A stretch of 21,060 nt of DNA from positions 1 to 21,060 of IMG/VR virus record IMGVR_UViG_3300003690_000685, one strand, 5' to 3'. Each line of letters starts with the position of its first letter. The first letter of the stretch is position 1. The notes under the pieces were generated by a model. It worked only from the letters and a program-made list of their open reading frames with translations, searched no databases and was not told the origin of the DNA. Below, piece after piece: positions 2,576 through 19,918 of this stretch. The stretch is from a virus. The translations under genes were made by a program, and so were the position numbers.

Positions 2576-2723
2576 AAAGGTTAAGGTAGGTGCGGGCGCG
2601 CGTGGGCGTTACGCGCACATGTCGCGTGCGTGCTTGTGCGCTCGGGGGGCCTATGGCCCAGCGGGCGTATCTTGGAGGTGCGCTCGCGAGGTGTTTGTTT
2701 TGTTTTTCACTTGGAGGTGAGTG
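2576..2723. other. GC-rich leader of the rightward operon, no gene
   Basis: No gene seen. From about 2589 to 2645 the sequence alternates purine and pyrimidine (GCGCGCGT, ACGCGCACATG, GCGTGCGTGC), a composition that favours Z-DNA. GGGCC-TAT-GGCCC is a perfect inverted repeat at 2647-2659. CTTGGAGGTG occurs twice, at 2671-2680 and 2710-2719; the second copy is the ribosome binding site of the helicase gene and the first has no usable start behind it. GTGCGCTCG is also duplicated (2636 and 2679). The segment probably carries the promoter or leader of the rightward genes. Confidence 0.4.
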
Positions 2724-3578
2724 ATGTATGGATCTATGCCTCAGTCCATTGAGGCTGAGAGGGACATACTTGGTGGTGTATTGTGCGACCCTTTGGTGAT
2801 GACTGAGGTTCGTCAAAGGGGTGTTGCGTGTTCGGACTTTTACATCAGGCGTAACGCTGACCTTTGGGGAGCAATGGTGTCTTTGTCTGACAAGGGCGTT
2901 CCTGTTGACCCCACCACCATCCAGGGCGAGATGAAGTCCTTGGGTACTTGGGAGGGTTTAGAGACGGCCAAGAGCATGGGCCGTGTTTTGGACAAGCCTG
3001 GGATTAGTTCTAACGTGGGTCATTACTGCGACATTTTGCTCAGAGAGAGTTTGAAGCGGGCAGTAGTGGTTGCTGGCGTGGATGCGTCTGAGTTGGCTCG
3101 TGAGGGCGATGGGATGTTGGCCATCTCATCAGCTACGGCACGTCTCAGGGAATTGGCTGAGAGGTCAGCGGGTGGTGTTGGGCTCGACGCTAAGAGTGGC
3201 ATCAACGGGTACCTTCACTACATCAGGCAGGTTCAGGACGGGACGATTGTTGATGGTCGGATACCTACTGGCCTTGGTCTTTTGGACGAGCGTTTGGGCG
3301 GTGGTCTCAAGCCTGGTTGGCAGGTTGTGGTGATGACTTGCTCTGGTCATGGCAAGACATCTTTTGCTGTGAACAACCTTGCTCTTAGCTGCGCGAGGTC
3401 TGGCAAGCCTGTTTTGGTTTGTTCATTAGAGATGAAGCCATCGGACATCTACGCCAGGATGATAGCTGCTGAGAGTGGTGTACCTGTGTGTGCCCATGAG
3501 AAGGTTGGTCTTCCTTCTTACGACATGGCTGAGATGGTTGGTGCTGGTGAGCCCATCAGCGGGTACCCCATCGGGTGA
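2724..3578 (+). CDS. dnaB: Replicative DnaB-type helicase, N-terminal part (split gene)
   Basis: Hexameric helicases of this family unwind DNA at the phage replication fork. The ATG at 2724 is 6 nt after GGAGG and preferred to the GTG at 2721. Residues 5-125 match the DnaB N-terminal domain (PQSIEAERDILGGVL, DFYIRRNADLWGAM). A linker follows. The ATPase core begins with PTGLGLLDERLGGGLKPG (181-198), a Walker A at 205-212 (TCSGHGKT, with T where A or G is usual) and LVCSLEM (231-237). The frame ends after SGYPIG at residue 284, in the middle of the RecA fold. The rest continues in the next frame, which overlaps by 4 nt (GTGA). Compared with the family, a short stretch normally containing paired acidic residues before the helix that begins SAIRG seems absent. 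Assembly error, deletion or natural splitting are all possible. Confidence 0.82.
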   Translation: MYGSMPQSIEAERDILGGVLCDPLVMTEVRQRGVACSDFYIRRNADLWGAMVSLSDKGVPVDPTTIQGEMKSLGTWEGLETAKSMGRVLDKPGISSNVGHYCDILLRESLKRAVVVAGVDASELAREGDGMLAISSATARLRELAERSAGGVGLDAKSGINGYLHYIRQVQDGTIVDGRIPTGLGLLDERLGGGLKPGWQVVVMTCSGHGKTSFAVNNLALSCARSGKPVLVCSLEMKPSDIYARMIAAESGVPVCAHEKVGLPSYDMAEMVGAGEPISGYPIG

Positions 3579-4018
3579 GCGCGATACGCGGTGCTGCTGA
3601 GGCGATGAAGTTGAAGTACGGTTCTTTGGGGATGGTTGTGGTTGACTACATCCAGTTGATGAAGTCAGCGGGAGGCAGAAGGGAGACGACGACTGAGGAG
3701 GACATCTCTGGTAACAGTAAGGCATTGAAGCATCTAGCTGTTGAGTTGGAGTGTGTGACTGTTGTTCTGTCTCAGCCTGTGCTTTCGGCCAAGCGGGAGC
3801 GTAGGCGTCCTACGATTCAACAGGCCAAGGGTTCTGGTAGCATTGAGGACGACTGTGACGTGGCTTTGGTGCCTTGGCAGCCTGGTTTGGTTGACGACGC
3901 CATCCACCGGAACAAGGCTGAGATGGGTATGGACAAGTTCAGGGATGGCAACAGGCATGGTTTGAACGATGAGGAGATACGGTGGAGTGGCAAGCGGATG
4001 AGGTTTGAGGCCATATGA
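3575..4018 (+). CDS. dnaB: Replicative DnaB-type helicase, C-terminal part (split gene)
   Basis: 147-aa frame beginning with a GTG that overlaps the stop of the N-terminal part by 4 nt. It supplies the rest of the RecA-like core: helix SAIRGAAEAMKLKYG, Walker B GMVVVDYIQLM (19-29, D24), the sensor VTVVLSQ (61-67), the loop region GSGSIEDDCDVALVPW (86-101), the basic segment DKFRDGNRHG expected to carry an arginine finger, and the end strand RWSGKRMRFE. Together the two parts make 431 residues, slightly below a full DnaB. No separate ribosome binding site is visible, so if it is made alone it would depend on translational coupling. The same overlap style occurs between the following genes, so the junction alone does not prove an error. 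Confidence 0.8.
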   Translation: MSAIRGAAEAMKLKYGSLGMVVVDYIQLMKSAGGRRETTTEEDISGNSKALKHLAVELECVTVVLSQPVLSAKRERRRPTIQQAKGSGSIEDDCDVALVPWQPGLVDDAIHRNKAEMGMDKFRDGNRHGLNDEEIRWSGKRMRFEAI

Positions 4019-4446
4019 GACTCTTCATGGGCATAGACCCTGGGTACTCAGGAGCCATCGCCCTTAGCGGAGATAGCGGAGATATCGTAGATATCATTAG
4101 GCTCAAGGAAACCGAGCATGACATCTCCACATTTGTCTCTGGGTACGCTGCTGACGTTGTGGCTGCGGTGCTAGAGAGGGTCAGTGCGATGCCCAAGCAG
4201 GGCGTGAGCAGCACGTTCAAGTTTGGTGTCAGTTTTGGGTTCTGTCGCGGGCTTTTGGTCTGTCACCGCATCCCTTTTTCCCTTGTTCCCCCCGGGACGT
4301 GGCAGAGGTCGATGCAGTGCTTGACCAGGGGGGACAAGAACGTGACTAAGGCGGCTGCACAGAGATTGTGGCCTTCGGAAAAGGTGGTCCATGCCACTGC
4401 TGACGCCATGTTGCTCTCTGAATACGCCAGGAGGCAGCATCTGTGA
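4015..4446 (+). CDS. RuvC-like Holliday junction resolvase
   Basis: 143-aa RNase H-fold nuclease expected to cut branched replication intermediates before packaging. The N-terminal strand holds the first catalytic acid in GIDPGYSGAIAL (D8). The second is in VLERVSAMP (E54). The conserved patch KQGVSSTFKFGVSFGFCRG (61-79) and the C-terminal HATADAMLLSEYARR (126-140, D130) complete the pattern. The length is usual for phage RuvC-type enzymes. The ATG overlaps the stop of the helicase by 4 nt (ATGA), so the two are translationally coupled. Placement between helicase and packaging genes fits replication and concatemer processing. The family is clear; the exact substrate preference is inferred. 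Confidence 0.87.
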   Translation: MRLFMGIDPGYSGAIALSGDSGDIVDIIRLKETEHDISTFVSGYAADVVAAVLERVSAMPKQGVSSTFKFGVSFGFCRGLLVCHRIPFSLVPPGTWQRSMQCLTRGDKNVTKAAAQRLWPSEKVVHATADAMLLSEYARRQHL

Positions 4447-4877
4447 CCTCATGGTTGACGGTGTCATTGATGTGTTTACATGCTATGGGGTGGCAGCCAA
4501 GCCGTCCCTATGAGCGGGCGCTCAAGACGTGTATGGCTGTTGGGCTGGGGGCCTCTGACGGTGGGCTCCCGGCCCACGTTTCCATCGCGTTAGCTTACAC
4601 AGAGAGCAGGTTCAACCCGGAGGCCAAGAGTGAGCGAGGAGCCAGGGGTCCTCTTCAGATTTTGCCTAAGTATCATTGCCCTTCTCGGTCTGCCGATGGT
4701 TGTGATTTGGTGGCTGCGGGCTTGTCTGCGATGAGAAGGTATCGTACAAAGTACGGGAGTTGGCCCTTGGTTCTCTGCCATTGGAACAGTGGAAATGAGT
4801 GTTACACACGTTCAAAGCGGTTCGCGCGTATCGTTCTCAGCAGAGCTAGAGAGCTTGCCCGCGTCCAGGGAGATTAA
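4443..4877 (+). CDS. Lytic transglycosylase-like peptidoglycan-degrading protein
   Basis: 144-aa protein starting with a GTG in a 4-nt GTGA overlap with the resolvase. The soluble lytic transglycosylase fold is seen in SIALAYTESRFNPEA (47-61, predicted catalytic E54), RGARGPLQILPKYH (65-78) and LVLCHWNSGN near residue 110. These enzymes cleave the glycan strand of peptidoglycan with formation of an anhydro ring. The N terminus (MTSWLTVSLMCLHAMGW) is weakly hydrophobic and might act as a poor signal or anchor, but no clear signal peptidase site is seen. It could be the endolysin or a virion lysin used at entry. Its place between resolvase and terminase genes, with no holin visible nearby, leaves that open. 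Confidence 0.78.
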   Translation: MTSWLTVSLMCLHAMGWQPSRPYERALKTCMAVGLGASDGGLPAHVSIALAYTESRFNPEAKSERGARGPLQILPKYHCPSRSADGCDLVAAGLSAMRRYRTKYGSWPLVLCHWNSGNECYTRSKRFARIVLSRARELARVQGD

Positions 4878-7740: not shown

Positions 7741-7884
7741 ATGAGTTTTGTAGACGACGCAGCGGCAGAGAAGATTGGGCAAATGCTTGATGGGGAGGTC
7801 CCTGTTGAGACTGATGCAGCTTCTTCTGATCGGATGCGGAGCCAGGGGTCTCTACAGAATCGTCCCAGACCGCAGGGGACGTAA
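7741..7884 (+). CDS. Scaffold protein, N-terminal fragment before a frame break
   Basis: ATG at 7741 with GGAGG 5 nt upstream. The first 30 residues (MSFVDDAAAEKIGQMLDGEV onwards) are acidic and look genuine. From about 7830 the product in this frame turns basic (RMRSQGSLQNRPRPQGT) and stops at 7884, while the acidic, scaffold-like reading continues in the -1 frame. The upstream limit of that other frame is a stop at 7827-7829, so the switch must occur between 7830 and 7881. No XXXYYYZ slippery heptamer aligned with the reading frame was found there, which argues against standard programmed -1 frameshifting. Confidence 0.6.
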   Translation: MSFVDDAAAEKIGQMLDGEVPVETDAASSDRMRSQGSLQNRPRPQGT

Positions 7885-8615
7885 AGCAGGAAGCAGCGGA
7901 GAGCAAGGCAGAGCAGACCACCCAGGAAGCCACGGCGGACGGCAGTGCCGCTGAGGAAGAAGGGGAGTCATCGGGCCACCGTGTCCCGTACAACCGGTTC
8001 AAGAAGGTCATCGACGCTCGGAACGAGTTCCAGACTGAGGCTGAGAAGTACAAGGCCCAGGTTTCAGAACTCCAAGAGCGCATGAAGACCTACTCTGCCC
8101 CAGAGCAAGTACAGCAGCCTGTTCAGCAGGAGGCTTCTGGTGATGACGAGTCTTGGCTCCAAGAGCTTTTGGGTGAAGAGGGGTCTTCTAGTAAGAAGCC
8201 CGACCCGGCGTTGCAGCAGCTATCACAGCGGCTACATGAGACCGAGGTGATGATCGCCCGTCAGCAGTTGGAAGTTGAGATCTCGTCAGCCACTGAGAAG
8301 TACCCTGCTGCTAACAGGGGTGTGATCTTGCAAGCTGTCCAGCATAACCCCTCTGTATCTGTAGAGGCGGTTGCCGAGCAGTATTCCTCATGGATTGCTC
8401 AGATGGAGGAGGCCGCAGTGGCCAAGTACCTCGCTGACAATCCTCAAGATGGTGCCCCAGAAGCGAAGAAGGCGTCAGCGCCTCGCCGCCCCAAGGGTGT
8501 CGGAAGTACTCAGGCGACTTCTGCTACAGAGAAGAGGGAGGTCCCCAGGACCGTCGAGGCCGGAAGTGCCGAGCTTCGTCGGAGGTGGGACGAAATAAAC
8601 CCCTTTGCTTCCTAG
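7830..8615 (+). CDS. Capsid scaffold protein, main part (frame-disrupted)
   Basis: Open from 7830 but without any ATG, GTG or TTG until the ATG at 8082, which lacks a good ribosome binding site; it is therefore most likely the continuation of the frame opened at 7741. The product is acidic and helical. It begins with a low-complexity stretch rich in E, Q, A and S, then VPYNRFKKVIDARNEFQTEA and a coiled coil (AEKYKAQVSELQERM), a typical phage scaffold layout. The C-terminal part has LSQRLHETEVMIARQQLEVE, a basic PRRPKG patch and ends with RRRWDEINPFAS. Scaffolds guide capsid assembly and leave before packaging. Its place between terminase and major capsid genes supports the call. Confidence 0.75.
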   Translation, partial: SDAEPGVSTESSQTAGDVKQEAAESKAEQTTQEATADGSAAEEEGESSGHRVPYNRFKKVIDARNEFQTEAEKYKAQVSELQERMKTYSAPEQVQQPVQQEASGDDESWLQELLGEEGSSSKKPDPALQQLSQRLHETEVMIARQQLEVEISSATEKYPAANRGVILQAVQHNPSVSVEAVAEQYSSWIAQMEEAAVAKYLADNPQDGAPEAKKASAPRRPKGVGSTQATSATEKREVPRTVEAGSAELRRRWDEINPFAS

Positions 8616-12505: not shown

Positions 12506-13218
12506 TGGCCACTGTAGATCAGATACTAGACACCGCCCGCACCTACATGGATGAGCCAGATCAAACCTTTTTGAGCCACGACGTACTGGACGGGCTGATG
12601 AACATCGCCTATCAGTCCTTCAGGCAGAAGGTCATGGAGGCTGACCCAAACATCCTGGCGCGCACCACGGATGTCACCATGACAGCCAACTCAGTTGATC
12701 TGTCCACCATCCCCATACCCATCCTTGGGGCAGGGGCGTTTGTGGTAACAGCAGGAAACAGGCTGGTAAAACTTCTGAGCGTCTACACGCTGGACAGCGC
12801 CACCGGGCTGCCAAACACCATGTTCTCTGGCGTAGGGGCCTTCCAGGGACTCACATCAGGTGGCTCAGTATATTACCTACAGGGCGACACGCTGTGGCTG
12901 TCCAGCCAGGTCAATGCCACAGTCAGATTGCTGTACGTTGCTGATGGCACTGATGTTATCTGGAACCCCACATCAACAGGCCCTCCTCCGGGTCCTGTAT
13001 ACGATGGCAACGCCCGCCCAGATAACCTCTCGCCTGTCCATGACCTCATCGCGCTTTACGCCTACAGGCAGTACCAGATGATGGACTCAGCGGTATCAGA
13101 GCCCCTGATGCTCCAAATCCGTAGCCGTGAGAAGGCGCTGGAAGAGTACCTCCTGGCCCGATCCGTTGGCGGCCCCAACTACGTTCAGGACGTCACCTCA
13201 CGCGACTTCTTTATCTAG
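12505..13218 (+). CDS. Head-tail adaptor (gp11/gp6-like connector)
   Basis: 237-aa protein whose ATG overlaps the portal stop by 1 nt and has GGGAG 6 nt before it. The N terminus (VDQILDTARTYMDEPDQTFLSHDVLDGLMNIAYQSF) is the helical opening found in small connector proteins that dock under the portal. A beta-rich middle part (RLVKLLSVYTLDS, VYYLQGDTLWLS, VRLLYVADGTDV) is followed by a C-terminal helical bundle (SPVHDLIALYAYRQYQMMDSA, MLQIRSREKALEEYLLARS). Size, order after the portal and this architecture support the call; a family name was not verified by search. Confidence 0.72.
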   Translation: MATVDQILDTARTYMDEPDQTFLSHDVLDGLMNIAYQSFRQKVMEADPNILARTTDVTMTANSVDLSTIPIPILGAGAFVVTAGNRLVKLLSVYTLDSATGLPNTMFSGVGAFQGLTSGGSVYYLQGDTLWLSSQVNATVRLLYVADGTDVIWNPTSTGPPPGPVYDGNARPDNLSPVHDLIALYAYRQYQMMDSAVSEPLMLQIRSREKALEEYLLARSVGGPNYVQDVTSRDFFI

Positions 13219-13227
13219 GAGCCCCCG

Positions 13228-13560
13228 ATGGCAACAAGAGGGCAAGAGGTCGAACTGCTGGGCGACGGCATCAGGGCAGACTCCCCTACCAAGGGGTCGT
13301 TTGCCCTCAACATGCTGTATCGGCGCAATGCCTGGGAGGTGCGTAGGGGTTTTGGCCAGGTCACTGAACTCGACACCACTATGCGGGCTGCCCCCATCAA
13401 CGACATCCCCAAGAATGCTCACCTCGTTTGGCCACGAGCAGATCATCTCCGTGTTCACAGCCCAGGTGAACAGCGGGGACAGGGTTCCCGACTCCCTAAC
13501 CCCCATCAACAACTCCACCCTCAGCCAGTTCACGCCCATCTATGTAGTGGACATCTATGA
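13228..13560 (+). CDS. Nozzle-like tail protein, N-terminal fragment before a frame break
   Basis: ATG at 13228 behind TAGGAG at 6 nt. The first about 65 residues (MATRGQEVELLGDGIRADSP, NMLYRRNAWEVRRGFGQVTE) are convincing and resemble the start of a tail nozzle-type protein. After AHL at about 13425 this frame yields an unnatural H-, P- and R-rich tail and stops at 13560, while the sensible reading continues in the +1 frame (SFGHEQIISVFTAQV). The likely switch is at 13410-13430. The stretch between TTMRAAPINDIPKN and TSFGHEQ looks shorter than I would expect, so a few residues may be missing. Confidence 0.65.
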   Translation: MATRGQEVELLGDGIRADSPTKGSFALNMLYRRNAWEVRRGFGQVTELDTTMRAAPINDIPKNAHLVWPRADHLRVHSPGEQRGQGSRLPNPHQQLHPQPVHAHLCSGHL

Positions 13561-16162
13561 CGTGACCACAGGAGATAGGTGGGAGGAGCCAATCTTCAGG
13601 CACACCGCTGAGTTTGGGCAGACAGAGACATCCCAGCTTGAGATGCCTTACTGGCACGGCCACTACGAGACGTGGTGGCGTACCAACCTTGGCGTCTCAG
13701 GCACGACTATCGTGCCTGTAGCGCCAGGGTCCTTCCTGGAGGACAGACAGCAGTGGGTGGTCTCCAAAGAACGCTCAGGGCAGTTCTTCTTCACTGAACT
13801 CGATGACATCCTGTACCTGGGCAACGCCGACACGGGCCTGCTCGCGTACATCCCGTCAGTTTTCCGGGGTAGGCGGAGGGGCATCAACAACCTGTCCAGA
13901 ACTGGCAGGGACAAGCAAGTGGGTACTGTCTATGACCGTGCGTGGTCGCCTCCCTACTCTGAGTCGTCAGTCGTCATCAACGCAGTAGCCTCTGATGGCC
14001 CCTTTTCTGAAGGCATCACCTACCTCACCAGGACTGAGTTCCCCACCCCCAGGGGAGGCGGCAGCATCAACGGGCGTCTGGTTCTGTTTGACGAGAAGAC
14101 CGTCTACTTCTCTGACGTAGGCTTCCCGACCTCCATGGCCGCTGACAACGTGATGCTTGTCCCCTCTGAGGACAACATCACAGCAGTCAAAGAGCACAAC
14201 GGGAACCTCATCATCTTCACCGAGACAGAGACTTGGTACTACCAGCCATCAGTGGGGTTTGTGGCCAGCGCAGGGAGGCTGGTCAGGATTGCAGAGGGCA
14301 TCGGGTGCCTCTCAGAGAGCGCGGTGACTAAGGCCGAAGACGCCATCATGTGGATGGATAGGGGTGGCATCTACGCCATGGGCGCAGGGCTCAAGCCCAA
14401 CCGCATCAGCGACCCAATCGAGCCCTTCTTCAATGACTACATCTCAAATCCAGTGACCAACTACTTCGTAGCAAACGGTGACATCCCGTCTCCGGTGCCA
14501 GGGCAGACCCCGTCTACGTTCAGGCTTGTGGGCAATGCTGTGGCCTCTTACTTCAGAGAGCTAGAAGCTGTCGTCTTCTCTCTACCTGACATGAACGCAG
14601 CCCTGTATCTGTCCAAGGGCAAGTGGTCCATCTGGTCCATGGAGACCATGGTGAATGAGGCCCCTGTCCCTGTGCCGGTTGGCCTCACAGCCAACATCGA
14701 GCGCCCGTGGGTGGTGACGTTTGACAGCGGCATGTACCTCGTTGGGTCGATCCCCCCAGACAACGATGGTGAACTGCTCACAGACGCGGACGACGAGTTG
14801 TTCAGCACACGATCACGCTCTTACTATGTCCTGAAGTATGGCAGAGGGGGCGCTGTAGACAGGTCAGTGGAGGCCGTTGAGGACTACAGGTTAGTGCGTG
14901 GCCAGTGGCGGTCTGACCTGGAGAAAGAGACGGTCGCTATCAATCCAAACGACAGTGACCACTACATCTATGCGGGCAAGTCCATCCCAATTCCAGAGGG
15001 GATGCCGTTAGGCGTGCTTGGCGGCGGGGACATATCGGATAGAGAGGACGCCTCTGATGGGGCTGTGTGGGTGCCGTTCCACATAGTCCCAGGATATCAG
15101 AACTCAACTGCCACAAACAGGTTTGGCAGCCCTGAGACGATGACGATTGCATTCACCTTCGACGGAGACAACTGGCTCCCCATAACGAAGCCAAGCGCGC
15201 CGTCGTCTGATATTCAGTTCTTCCTGCCTCCAGAAAGGCAGCCAACACACCCTGGGTGGATAGTTACGCTCACGTTGCCGAACATCATCAACATCCAATT
15301 CAATGGACCTGCTGCCCCAAACACTTGGACTTTCCACCCCAGGCTAGCGCTTCAGAAGAGGCAAGAAAACAGACTCATTTACATCCCGTTCAGGCCACTC
15401 AACAGCGCAACGACTACAGGGCCGCGTGTCACTTTCACGGTAGCTCAGATGACCGAGGTAACGGCGCCGGCTGTGCAGATACAGATGCGCAGGTTCGTCT
15501 GGGATGAGACCCGTATCCTCGCTGACCGCCATGAGGACAACGACGTGGCCCAGGCGGTGGACTGGGCCTACAAGTCCTCTCCTGTGAGGGCAGAGGGCTC
15601 TGTGCAGGTAAAGGGGCGCGGCCTGTTCATGGACGCCCTATCTCACGGCACAGCCGTAGCGGTGCAGCGTCTCGTTGACATCTGGCCTTTTGGGCTGCTC
15701 AACATCCTGTCAGCCCCTGATGCCAAGGGATGGTCCTCGCAGGTGATCGACGTGGTTGGTGATATCCAGCCACCTAGCATCACCAACGGGTCGTTCAAGA
15801 ACACCATTCGTACCCGCTACTCCAGCGTAAGCACAAACCCACTGACGACCAACACATTCAATACGCTAGGAGGCCCTGTGTACGGCGAGCCAGGTGTAGC
15901 GCCCCTTCCTGGGGCCACTCGCTTTGAGACGGTTGGTGATGAGGAGGTGGGCCAGTTGGCCATTAGCGACTCGGTGAGGGGAGAGAGCTTCACATACATG
16001 ATCTGGGGCTCCATGCAGAACAAGGCAGAGCGCCTCATCTTCGAGTCAGCAAGGGCGGTGATGAGGATCTTGGGCGGCAAAAAGCGTAGGGGGCGCTGGA
16101 CTCGGTTTCTTAGAAGGCGGAGGCCGTGTCAGCGAGAACAAGAAGGTGCTCAACGCCCTTAA
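13415..16162 (+). CDS. Nozzle-like tail protein, main part (frame-disrupted)
   Basis: Large frame, about 915 residues from the first ATG at 13415, which has no good ribosome binding site; it probably continues the 13228 frame. The middle part reads like the beta-propeller of short-tail nozzle proteins: GRLVLFDEKTVYFSDVGFPT, SEDNITAVKEHNGNLIIFTE with TETWYYQPS, then IGCLSESAVTKAEDAIMWMD and RGGIYAMGAGLKPNRISDPI (about 14070-14430). The C-terminal half is beta-rich and may form further tail domains. The role would be closing and lining the DNA exit channel below the adaptor. From about 16080 the product becomes arginine-rich (KKRRGRWTRFLRRRRPCQR), typical of an out-of-frame read, so the true end or a further frame switch probably lies there. 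Confidence 0.72.
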   Translation: MLTSFGHEQIISVFTAQVNSGDRVPDSLTPINNSTLSQFTPIYVVDIYDVTTGDRWEEPIFRHTAEFGQTETSQLEMPYWHGHYETWWRTNLGVSGTTIVPVAPGSFLEDRQQWVVSKERSGQFFFTELDDILYLGNADTGLLAYIPSVFRGRRRGINNLSRTGRDKQVGTVYDRAWSPPYSESSVVINAVASDGPFSEGITYLTRTEFPTPRGGGSINGRLVLFDEKTVYFSDVGFPTSMAADNVMLVPSEDNITAVKEHNGNLIIFTETETWYYQPSVGFVASAGRLVRIAEGIGCLSESAVTKAEDAIMWMDRGGIYAMGAGLKPNRISDPIEPFFNDYISNPVTNYFVANGDIPSPVPGQTPSTFRLVGNAVASYFRELEAVVFSLPDMNAALYLSKGKWSIWSMETMVNEAPVPVPVGLTANIERPWVVTFDSGMYLVGSIPPDNDGELLTDADDELFSTRSRSYYVLKYGRGGAVDRSVEAVEDYRLVRGQWRSDLEKETVAINPNDSDHYIYAGKSIPIPEGMPLGVLGGGDISDREDASDGAVWVPFHIVPGYQNSTATNRFGSPETMTIAFTFDGDNWLPITKPSAPSSDIQFFLPPERQPTHPGWIVTLTLPNIINIQFNGPAAPNTWTFHPRLALQKRQENRLIYIPFRPLNSATTTGPRVTFTVAQMTEVTAPAVQIQMRRFVWDETRILADRHEDNDVAQAVDWAYKSSPVRAEGSVQVKGRGLFMDALSHGTAVAVQRLVDIWPFGLLNILSAPDAKGWSSQVIDVVGDIQPPSITNGSFKNTIRTRYSSVSTNPLTTNTFNTLGGPVYGEPGVAPLPGATRFETVGDEEVGQLAISDSVRGESFTYMIWGSMQNKAERLIFESARAVMRILGGKKRRGRWTRFLRRRRPCQREQEGAQRP

Positions 16163-16598: not shown

Positions 16599-17749
16599 TG
16601 CCTTACGATCACAAAAAGAGCCTACGCACCATTACTGATGAGCAGTTCAGTGATGGCACCACCATCGACGGGACACGCATTGATGATGCCCTCCGTGAGG
16701 CCGTTGAGCATTTCAACAGCGTTCCTGGCGGGGACGTGTCCACCCGATTCACCAAGACCCAGTACATCTTTGGTTATCAGCCTGCCGGATATACAGGGAC
16801 CCCAGTTGGCACACTTCCATCGTTGCCTGTCATGGAGACCGCTGGGGGCACTGTGGAGGGGCCTACATGGCCGTGGAACTTCATCACCAACAACGAGTTC
16901 ACTACCGCTGAGGTTGGGACTGCGGCACCCATTTATGGCAATCCGTCCACCCCCACGGCTGGATTTCAGAACAAATGGCGTGTCAAAGGGACAGCCTTCA
17001 ATCAGATTGGAGGTCCAGGTGTCCAGAGTCTTGAGAACGCCGACAGGTGGGATGATCCTGAGTGGGAGGATGCTTGGGATGTTGGCGGCGTTGCCGGAGC
17101 AGTGGAGCCGCGTAGCGCTGCTCACAACTACCAATTTGCGTGGTCTCATTCCTGGGTGTTTGAAAGCCCGGTTATACTGGACTCCCTGTGTATCCTGATG
17201 AGGACGGACTTCCCGGTCGGTGCTCTTGGCTTGGGTGACAACGGCTATTATGCAGCCCCGTTCCTGTTCAATGACGGATCAGGTTTCGAGCACAAGACAC
17301 AGAGCGTGACGATACAGGTTAGCGTGGATAACGAGTTTGCCAAGGAGGACAGGCGTCTCAACGATGTAGAGGTCATGTTCAGCAACAGGCGACTGGATGG
17401 CTACACCGTCACTGATATACCGCTGTCAGGCCTCCCGTATGACGATATGATCCCCAGGAGCCCAGAGCATTCTGGGGGCACCGGTGATGGTACTGGCGGC
17501 AGGATTATAAGGTTTAGGGACTTGAACATCCCGATGAGGCAAGGGGCCAGGGTGCGCTTGTACATAGTCGTTCCGTGGTTCAGGCACACGGGACCAACAT
17601 TGTCTGCTGTGATGGACCAGCAGGGGCTGTCTGCCTCAACCATCAGGAACAAGTTTGCTGGTTGGGGAACAAACCCTCGGGGTTCTGAGCCGATGTGGAA
17701 CTGGGCCATGGATGGCAACATGACCGTCCTTGAGCAGGTGACACGCTAA
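16598..17749 (+). CDS. Virion-associated protein of unknown function, 383 aa
   Basis: The ATG at 16598 overlaps the previous stop (TAATG) and is preferred to the GTG at 16586, since MPYDHKKSLRTITDEQFSDG is a natural opening with an amphipathic N terminus. Middle segments with many W, N, G and aromatic residues (WPWNFITNNEFTTAEVG, AWSHSWVFESPVILDSLC) and late beta strands (RIIRFRDLNIPMRQGARVRL) suggest a folded beta-rich structural protein. I have an impression of similar proteins in uncultured phage genomes next to tail genes, but no family name can be given. The next gene starts at its stop, again TAATG. Confidence 0.72.
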   Translation: MPYDHKKSLRTITDEQFSDGTTIDGTRIDDALREAVEHFNSVPGGDVSTRFTKTQYIFGYQPAGYTGTPVGTLPSLPVMETAGGTVEGPTWPWNFITNNEFTTAEVGTAAPIYGNPSTPTAGFQNKWRVKGTAFNQIGGPGVQSLENADRWDDPEWEDAWDVGGVAGAVEPRSAAHNYQFAWSHSWVFESPVILDSLCILMRTDFPVGALGLGDNGYYAAPFLFNDGSGFEHKTQSVTIQVSVDNEFAKEDRRLNDVEVMFSNRRLDGYTVTDIPLSGLPYDDMIPRSPEHSGGTGDGTGGRIIRFRDLNIPMRQGARVRLYIVVPWFRHTGPTLSAVMDQQGLSASTIRNKFAGWGTNPRGSEPMWNWAMDGNMTVLEQVTR

Positions 17750-19014
17750 TGGCGAAGGTCACCCGTAAGAAGATGGGCAGGGGCGTAGAACTTACTGTCG
17801 ATCAGGTGTTTGACCCCATCAGGAGCATGGATACTGAACTCAGTCTTTCCAACATCGAATCTGAGCAGATGGAGAAGGGTGAGAGCATTTTCCGCCTCAA
17901 CTTCAATATTCCGTGGCTGGGCTCCAAATACTTCCACGACAACCGCACGTCTGGCGTATCTATAACCATCAAAGACGTGGGCACGAGCTACATAGTGTCT
18001 GGAAATCTGGCCACCACTACTGGCGGCGCGGGCTCTGGGCTTACCGTTGATATACTTGAAGTCGGAGCGGGCGGTGAGGTCGAGAGGGTTTGGATCAACC
18101 GACCGGGGACTGGGTACGCAGACGGCGATACCGTCACTGTGGCTGGCGGTGGCCCTCCCCCTGATTGCGTCTTGGCGCTGTCCGTTGTTGCTGACAAGTT
18201 CGATAACCCGTTCTACATACCGTTCTGCCTGCCGCCCTTGCAGGAGAACTTCCTTGGCACAGACGCGCTGCCTGTCCTTGGCCCAGACACCCCGTTTCCT
18301 GTCTTGAAGGAGATCTCATTTAGCCTTGATCAGTCAGATGAGCCAGCAGCTATACTTGACCATTGGTATGGCCGGGACAAGTATCAATACACGCCAGCGC
18401 GAAGGTGGATGCCAAATCCCCATGGGGGCAAAAAGACCTACAACAGGCCGGACGCATACGAGTTCACTCTGAGCATCTTTGAGAAGGAGCAGGTCTTCTT
18501 CAACTCATCGATCCAGGAGACCAATCGGTTCCAAGTGGGTGGCGAAGCAGTCAGTATCACCATCCCCGCATCGGCCTTCATATCACGCACCACGCGGTTC
18601 AACCCCATCTCGGTGGGAGACATCAACCGTCAACTACACCCTCTCAAGACCTACTGCCTCGCCATCTTTGCCCCCAACCTCCATGACATCTCCGCTAGCA
18701 GAGAGCACTGTGTGGCCAACAATATCTGGATAAGCCTGAAGTTCCAGATGCCTCTCACGGTCCGTGACAACGCATCTGCTCCAGCGCCGTTCACCGTGCA
18801 GAACATGCCCCTCCACTTTGGCCAGAGGAGTGGCCCGGTCATCCCTGTTGTCCAGCCCGTGGCAGGCGACACCGTCATCGCAGATGGCAGAGGTGGGCAT
18901 CTCGACGAACCTCCAACTCATCGACGAGCAGTTCAGCAGCAAGCTCAGAGGCGGCTACAACGAGTTTGCCCAGGTGTACCCTTCTCAGCCCATAGAGGAC
19001 GATGCGGCTTATGA
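17749..19014 (+). CDS. Beta-rich virion protein, N-terminal part before a frame break
   Basis: 421-aa frame whose ATG overlaps the stop of the 383-aa gene. It opens with MAKVTRKKMGRGVELTVDQV. A glycine-rich insert at residues about 72-148 (TTTGGAGSGLTVDILEVGAG, RPGTGYADGDTVTVAGGG) resembles a small beta domain seen in phage and viral structural proteins. It interrupts what should be a continuous line from FHDNRTSGVS to DNPFYIPFCLPP. The body to about residue 380 is convincing (SLDQSDEPAAILDHWYGRDK, NPISVGDINRQLHPLKTYCL). After ADGRGG (18897) this frame gives HLDEPPTHRRAVQQQAQRR and looks out of frame, while a good protein continues one base later. Confidence 0.72.
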   Translation: MAKVTRKKMGRGVELTVDQVFDPIRSMDTELSLSNIESEQMEKGESIFRLNFNIPWLGSKYFHDNRTSGVSITIKDVGTSYIVSGNLATTTGGAGSGLTVDILEVGAGGEVERVWINRPGTGYADGDTVTVAGGGPPPDCVLALSVVADKFDNPFYIPFCLPPLQENFLGTDALPVLGPDTPFPVLKEISFSLDQSDEPAAILDHWYGRDKYQYTPARRWMPNPHGGKKTYNRPDAYEFTLSIFEKEQVFFNSSIQETNRFQVGGEAVSITIPASAFISRTTRFNPISVGDINRQLHPLKTYCLAIFAPNLHDISASREHCVANNIWISLKFQMPLTVRDNASAPAPFTVQNMPLHFGQRSGPVIPVVQPVAGDTVIADGRGGHLDEPPTHRRAVQQQAQRRLQRVCPGVPFSAHRGRCGL

Positions 19015-19918
19015 GGTCATGGTTGTCCCTCTCGGCGCTGGCTTCCCCCACAACAGAATGAGCGCTAGGGATGATTATCCATTGGCCCCGTATGTGTCGG
19101 GGTCTTCCTTCGGTGCTGCGCCGCCTTTCTTTTATAAAGAGGATTCGTATGTAGACCGCAGACTTATCCCCATTGACGGTGATATGACCATCCACCATGT
19201 CATCGTGGCGCTGAACTGGACCTCTGACCTGATTCAGGACATGTATGACCCGGCGGTCACAGGAGGTGTTGTCTACGGCAGGCCATCGATACCGGGAACG
19301 CTTGGTTCGCCAGGGCATGTAGAGTACGTTGTGGGCGTAGCTATGCTCACAGGGCCAAGGGCAGACCTGTTTGAGTACCAGCAGATAGCCTTTAGCAACT
19401 TCAACCCAGGGCTCCTGCCAGCAATACCTGATGGCACCATTGATGCTATCCGGCTAGGATTGCCTGCTTGTACTAACATGCCCGCTGAGTGGGTCCTCGC
19501 CTCTGTTCCTATCCGGCATCAAGCTGCGATCCCCAACGCAAACAACGGAAACGGGTATTGGGGCTATACAGGTGATGCGTTCACTAGCCCGGAATGGGAC
19601 AGGGGCGAGCAAGGCACGCCGTGGTTTGTGGGCGAGGGCAACACCTATACCCGTGATAGGACGCCGGTTGGAAACGGAGCACTTCCGGTCCCGGCAGCGG
19701 TAGAGCCGTTCAGGGCCACCCATGACTTTGATAATAGCGAAGGGACCGAGAAGTTCCTTGAGGTAAGGCTTGAGATGAGGCCTAGCAGCAGAGTCTATGT
19801 GGATCCTGTAGATTCACCCCCAACCCTTACATACGACGTGAACTACCAGCAGGGGGACATCTTCTTGGGCTACGGCGGCTGCTGGGTATATATCATCGGG
19901 AAGAAACATCTGAAGTGA
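18884..19918 (+). CDS. Beta-rich virion protein, C-terminal part or separate gene
   Basis: 344-aa frame from the ATG at 18884, which lacks a ribosome binding site. It overlaps the end of the preceding frame by 131 nt. GISTNLQLIDEQFSSKLRGG then YNEFAQVYPSQPIEDDAAYE read as a natural continuation of VVQPVAGDTVIADGRG if a single base near 18898 is ignored, so the two frames most likely encode one protein of about 720 residues. The rest is beta-rich with many G, P and aromatic residues (VIVALNWTSDLIQDMYDP, WVLASVPIRHQAAIPNANN) and ends VYIIGKKHLK. Likely a head or tail surface protein; exact role unknown. Confidence 0.7.
   Translation: MAEVGISTNLQLIDEQFSSKLRGGYNEFAQVYPSQPIEDDAAYEVMVVPLGAGFPHNRMSARDDYPLAPYVSGSSFGAAPPFFYKEDSYVDRRLIPIDGDMTIHHVIVALNWTSDLIQDMYDPAVTGGVVYGRPSIPGTLGSPGHVEYVVGVAMLTGPRADLFEYQQIAFSNFNPGLLPAIPDGTIDAIRLGLPACTNMPAEWVLASVPIRHQAAIPNANNGNGYWGYTGDAFTSPEWDRGEQGTPWFVGEGNTYTRDRTPVGNGALPVPAAVEPFRATHDFDNSEGTEKFLEVRLEMRPSSRVYVDPVDSPPTLTYDVNYQQGDIFLGYGGCWVYIIGKKHLK

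Follow-up and report, generated by a model that had tools for sequence, protein, structure and literature searches.

The helicase locus of an IMG/VR virus record of 21,060 bases, which is part of a tailed-phage genome (this whole stretch is hereafter called the window), raises the question of whether a replicative helicase can work as two separately translated chains, or whether one ordinary gene was broken in the record. The window encodes the helicase, a RuvC-like resolvase, an SLT lytic enzyme, the large terminase (TerL), a scaffold-like protein, the capsid protein, a P22-like portal and tail proteins, the scaffold and tail labels being inferred from position and size.

The helicase is carried by two pieces on the + strand. 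The 5' piece (ORF1, 2721..3578) starts at GTG 2721 or ATG 2724, ends in SGYPIG before the TGA stop at 3576-3578, and comprises the N-terminal domain, the Walker A motif and the catalytic-Glu strand (DnaB N, PF00772, 1.6e-15; DnaB_C, 1.4e-10). The 3' piece (ORF2, 3575..4018; DnaB_C, 3.1e-21) has an apparent start at GTG 3575, overlaps ORF1 by 4 nt and runs from Walker B onward. The names Walker A, catalytic Glu and Walker B are those that we take to apply to this helicase. Both PF00772 and PF03796 scored above cut-off, so that a DnaB N-terminal domain and a RecA-like C-terminal core are present, spread over two frames, the DnaB_C profile being covered at positions 2-99 by ORF1 and 117-254 by ORF2.

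The initial annotation had described two overlapping helicase frames with a short stretch missing, and the alignment with relatives bears this out. ORF1 can be aligned up to the conserved Pro-Ile, where it stops, and ORF2 resumes eight columns further on, leaving columns 310-317 empty in the window; these columns are filled by KVIGSEYG-like residues in L004 and by TVIDSSKG-like residues in L002, two relatives from uncultured phages. The junction itself (3567..3578, + strand) consists of the conserved Pro-Ile codons followed by a −1 frame change, with about eight residues of the relatives missing, and a comparison of the window DNA with L002 gives a deficit of about 25 nt at this place. When the intact L004 helicase is modelled with AlphaFold2 (pLDDT 88.8), the absent segment is predicted to correspond to most of strand E284-287 and the loop before helix H294-308, and would thus lie after the catalytic-Glu strand and ahead of the Walker B strand. 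As recorded, the window does not encode a continuous core with all its strands, on account of the frame change and the predicted loss of the E284-287 strand region.

The 134 loci compared included the best 80 of 574 confirmed helicase loci and 42 loci from a terminase search (some contigs are present twice, as L004/L091, L002/L093 and L003/L094). A helicase match was found in 94 loci besides the window, that of L035 covering only the part downstream of the site. Among the matches listed, all 93 spanning relatives read through the site with neither stop nor frame change, and the window was the only broken one, in a survey that favours good full-length matches and may have ranked down any contig whose helicase is broken. 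The check that had been suggested for a natural split, namely that relatives would all share it, therefore had the opposite outcome. Five close relatives of ORF2 occur in IMG/VR, all five with a single-frame helicase. The best of them, L002 and L003, are near duplicates, about 75% identical to the window in the 3' piece, and the identity to ORF2 (74% over residues 1-147) begins at its first residue. Peptide-pattern searches of viral_contigs returned no close relatives of ORF1, of the tail gene or of the gene at 17749.

The strongest clue to the nature of the helicase split is that three further genes of the window, all on the + strand, are frame-broken. The scaffold-like gene (7741..8615) is broken near 7825, its 5' end lying in frame 1 and the rest in frame 3, which has no start codon before 8082; upstream of the GHRVPY motif this frame is open for 48 amino acids in the window, versus 73-98 in all 27 relative loci with the motif. 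The tail-module gene of about 1000 amino acids (13228..16162) passes from frame 1 to frame 2 near 13400 and is about a dozen residues short as compared with L009 and L091, whereas it is a single frame in 6/6 relative copies. The corresponding listed ORF begins at 13127, in a different frame from the probable true start of this gene. The structural gene of about 700 amino acids (17749..19918) changes from frame 1 to frame 2 near 18890, and its relatives in G001, G003 and G004, which cover both window pieces, are uninterrupted frames of 696, 758 and 763 amino acids. The frame breaks of the window, and the lack of those breaks in the relatives, are firm observations.

When ten core genes were compared by one common method, three were broken in the window against one of 209 relative copies (Fisher p 2.7e-4; the copies are not independent, since they include contigs under two locus identifiers and several loci of one genome, and matches with less than 40% identity or less than 100 bits were left out). 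The scaffold N-terminus is too weakly conserved for this method to flag the scaffold break of the window, which is supported, outside the common count, by the frame reading and the GHRVPY comparison. The sole broken relative copy is the portal of L010 (4840-6367), a metagenomic contig of the same group, which has one ambiguous base at 2099.

Apart from the breaks, the helicase looks well preserved. The window keeps the conserved residue at 38 of 40 columns with 90% or higher conservation across 33 relatives, and at 71 of the 73 that do not vary among the 16 closest rows. Its two pieces are identical to L004 at 119/282 and 88/146 positions, the corresponding values of L002 against L004 being 125/279 and 93/146, and their similarity to L004, L011 and L102 is roughly that of L002, slightly lower in most comparisons. 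Because identities stay near those of L002 and the conserved residues are kept, we see no sign of relaxed constraint or of long neutral decay.

From these data, a natural two-subunit enzyme, in which the Walker A and Walker B halves would be separate chains produced by coupled translation across the GTGA overlap, appears highly improbable. Such an arrangement would agree with the conserved residues kept in both pieces and with the 4-nt overlap, which, as had been pointed out, resembles later gene junctions (4015/4018, 4443/4446 and 6115/6118), the first two of which join ORF2 to the RuvC-like Holliday junction resolvase (4015..4446, + strand; phrog_1770, 3e-21; a single intact frame in the window and in relatives) and the latter to the SLT transglycosylase or endolysin-like gene (4443..4877, + strand; PF01464, 3.7e-08; likewise an intact single frame). 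However, the split occurs in none of the 93 spanning relatives among the matches listed, a core strand is predicted to be absent, and more genes are broken in the same record. Nor did we find a separate start with ribosome binding for a second chain: GTG 3575 falls on an ordinary coding position, occupied by Val in 12 and by Ile in 11 of 33 relatives (23/33), the codon itself being GTG in four of the sixteen listed, and the Shine-Dalgarno pairing of the upstream 20 nt with the 16S tail amounts to −4.7 kcal/mol, near the random mean of −3.7 (at 31% of random positions the value is −5 or below). Elsewhere in the window, many gene starts have values of −6 to −10.6, but the pairing test weighs little, because TerL (−2.1) and three other starts are weak too. 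As relatives often carry a Val or Ile codon at this place, the stop/start overlap is the expected product of a −1 frame break. Thus, the coupled two-subunit helicase offered by the initial annotation is not supported, and a functional split helicase is very unlikely; the same slim chance attaches to the broader view that the helicase and some of the structural proteins are separately translated, reassembling chains, with the third core strand dispensable. Programmed −1 frameshifting, which would fuse both pieces into one shortened protein, accounts for ORF2 lying in the −1 frame with an overlapping stop, yet it is the least credible reading of all: the fused product would still lack the eight or so residues, and the strand segment, found in relatives; a standard slippery heptamer was not seen at the site by eye; and the relatives among the matches listed read straight through without it. 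Moreover, two of the four breaks run the opposite way (−1 in the helicase and scaffold genes, +1 in the tail-module and 700-amino-acid genes) and the lost lengths also differ, which argues against any common recoding rule and, more generally, against a single recoding or splitting mechanism. A lost intein-like insert, also conceived earlier, or an intron remnant, is not supported by the aligned relatives, which have only helicase residues at the site, with nothing extra.

There remain two ways in which an ordinary gene could have come to look like this. The helicase split is very probably an indel or deletion error in a draft metagenomic contig, the phage itself having a one-chain DnaB-type helicase, and the main rival is a truly defective genome, i.e. 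real mutations in a defective phage, a decaying prophage or a minority variant picked by the assembler, which we regard as unlikely though well ahead of the split or frameshifted enzymes. Four broken genes are what a degenerate genome is expected to show, and the losses of about 25 and 35 nt exceed common single-base errors, so that they look more like true deletions than base-calling slips. Against this, neither the conserved residues nor the identity to relatives are eroded; all four breaks are frame changes, and among the core genes examined none was seen to be cut short by a substituted stop; the ORF list of the window showed no obvious integrase or host flank, and most of the related sequences retrieved are virus contigs. 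Several unrelated genes, four in number, are broken while their relatives are intact, as is expected of a sequence or assembly error. Since the contig has at least four frame breaks, a sequencing or assembly error of a low-quality contig is the likeliest cause, and record error best explains the breaks because four fresh ones hit genes that the phage is expected to need. We infer a technical rather than a mutational cause, and likewise the technical step that failed.

By an error of this kind, a short out-of-frame segment, some 25 nt relative to L002, would have dropped out of the record just past the Pro-Ile of the third core strand. This loss would shift the downstream coding sequence into the −1 frame, and the GTG codon together with an out-of-frame TGA would then mimic a 4-nt overlapping stop and start. 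The deletion or assembly fault first suspected at the junction fits the wholeness of all 93 spanning relatives among the matches listed. The repeated words CCCATC..GGGT that had been noted near the junction are indeed present, at 3552-3564 and 3567-3576 (2 matches against 0.38 expected; 7 of 100 shuffles reach 2), both copies lying upstream of the junction or ending at it. Slippage between them may have caused the loss. No intact allele from the same species as the window was found among the fetched relatives.

The relatives also differ among themselves around the helicase. In L002 (515-3391) and L004 (5122-6879), the helicases are only 51% identical, while the RuvC and SLT proteins are 98% and 100% identical, respectively, and L002 carries two additional genes in the interval from helicase to RuvC; judging from these sequences, the difference looks like a swapped replication module. 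The window helicase is closer to that of L002 than to that of L004. A small membrane-like, possibly holin, gene lies between RuvC and SLT in L004 (6872-7288) and also in L002, and L005 and L006 have a RuvC-SLT gap of the same size; the window lacks this gene, as do several other relatives. Its absence was considered as a further deletion and dropped, as the RuvC-SLT gap is 6-81 nt in 9 of the 17 listed relative loci (6-12 nt in eight of them) and 6 in the window. Lastly, L128, a 13,299-base virus-like contig of this phage group, lies inside a metagenome-assembled genome labelled Micavibrio, which is a weak hint as to the host, or a binning error.

Most likely, then, the window holds no new two-part enzyme, and its helicase is an ordinary DnaB-type phage helicase that was broken in the record. 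Recognizing this keeps a split replicative helicase from being claimed in error; a real one would mean that two chains lacking one core strand suffice to form a hexameric helicase core. It also flags the whole record as unreliable at the indel level, and other odd overlaps in it need the same caution.

A phage annotation guide describes frame-shift assembly errors as a growing problem among phage records and notes that frameshifts can often be recognized by BLASTX searches with a homologous phage (PMC8785237). In the present case, the 21 kb of the window contain at least four breaks, and about 25 and 35 nt are lost at two of them. Bacterial DnaB structures (2vye/2vyf, 2r6a, 4esv and others) are matched by the family profile that includes the window pieces (2vye positions 2-429, E 6.7e-160); in them the chain is contiguous, whereas the window record is without the segment for the strand after Pro-Ile. 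The DnaB-type helicases of uncultured phages (L002-L006, L011-L019, L097-L102) have Walker A, the catalytic Glu, Walker B and the remaining core motifs in common with the window, and the nearest of these phages have a similar gene order (helicase, RuvC, SLT, TerL, scaffold, capsid, portal, tail). Wherever the site is spanned, their helicases are a single unbroken frame, whereas the window is short by about eight residues and changes frame.
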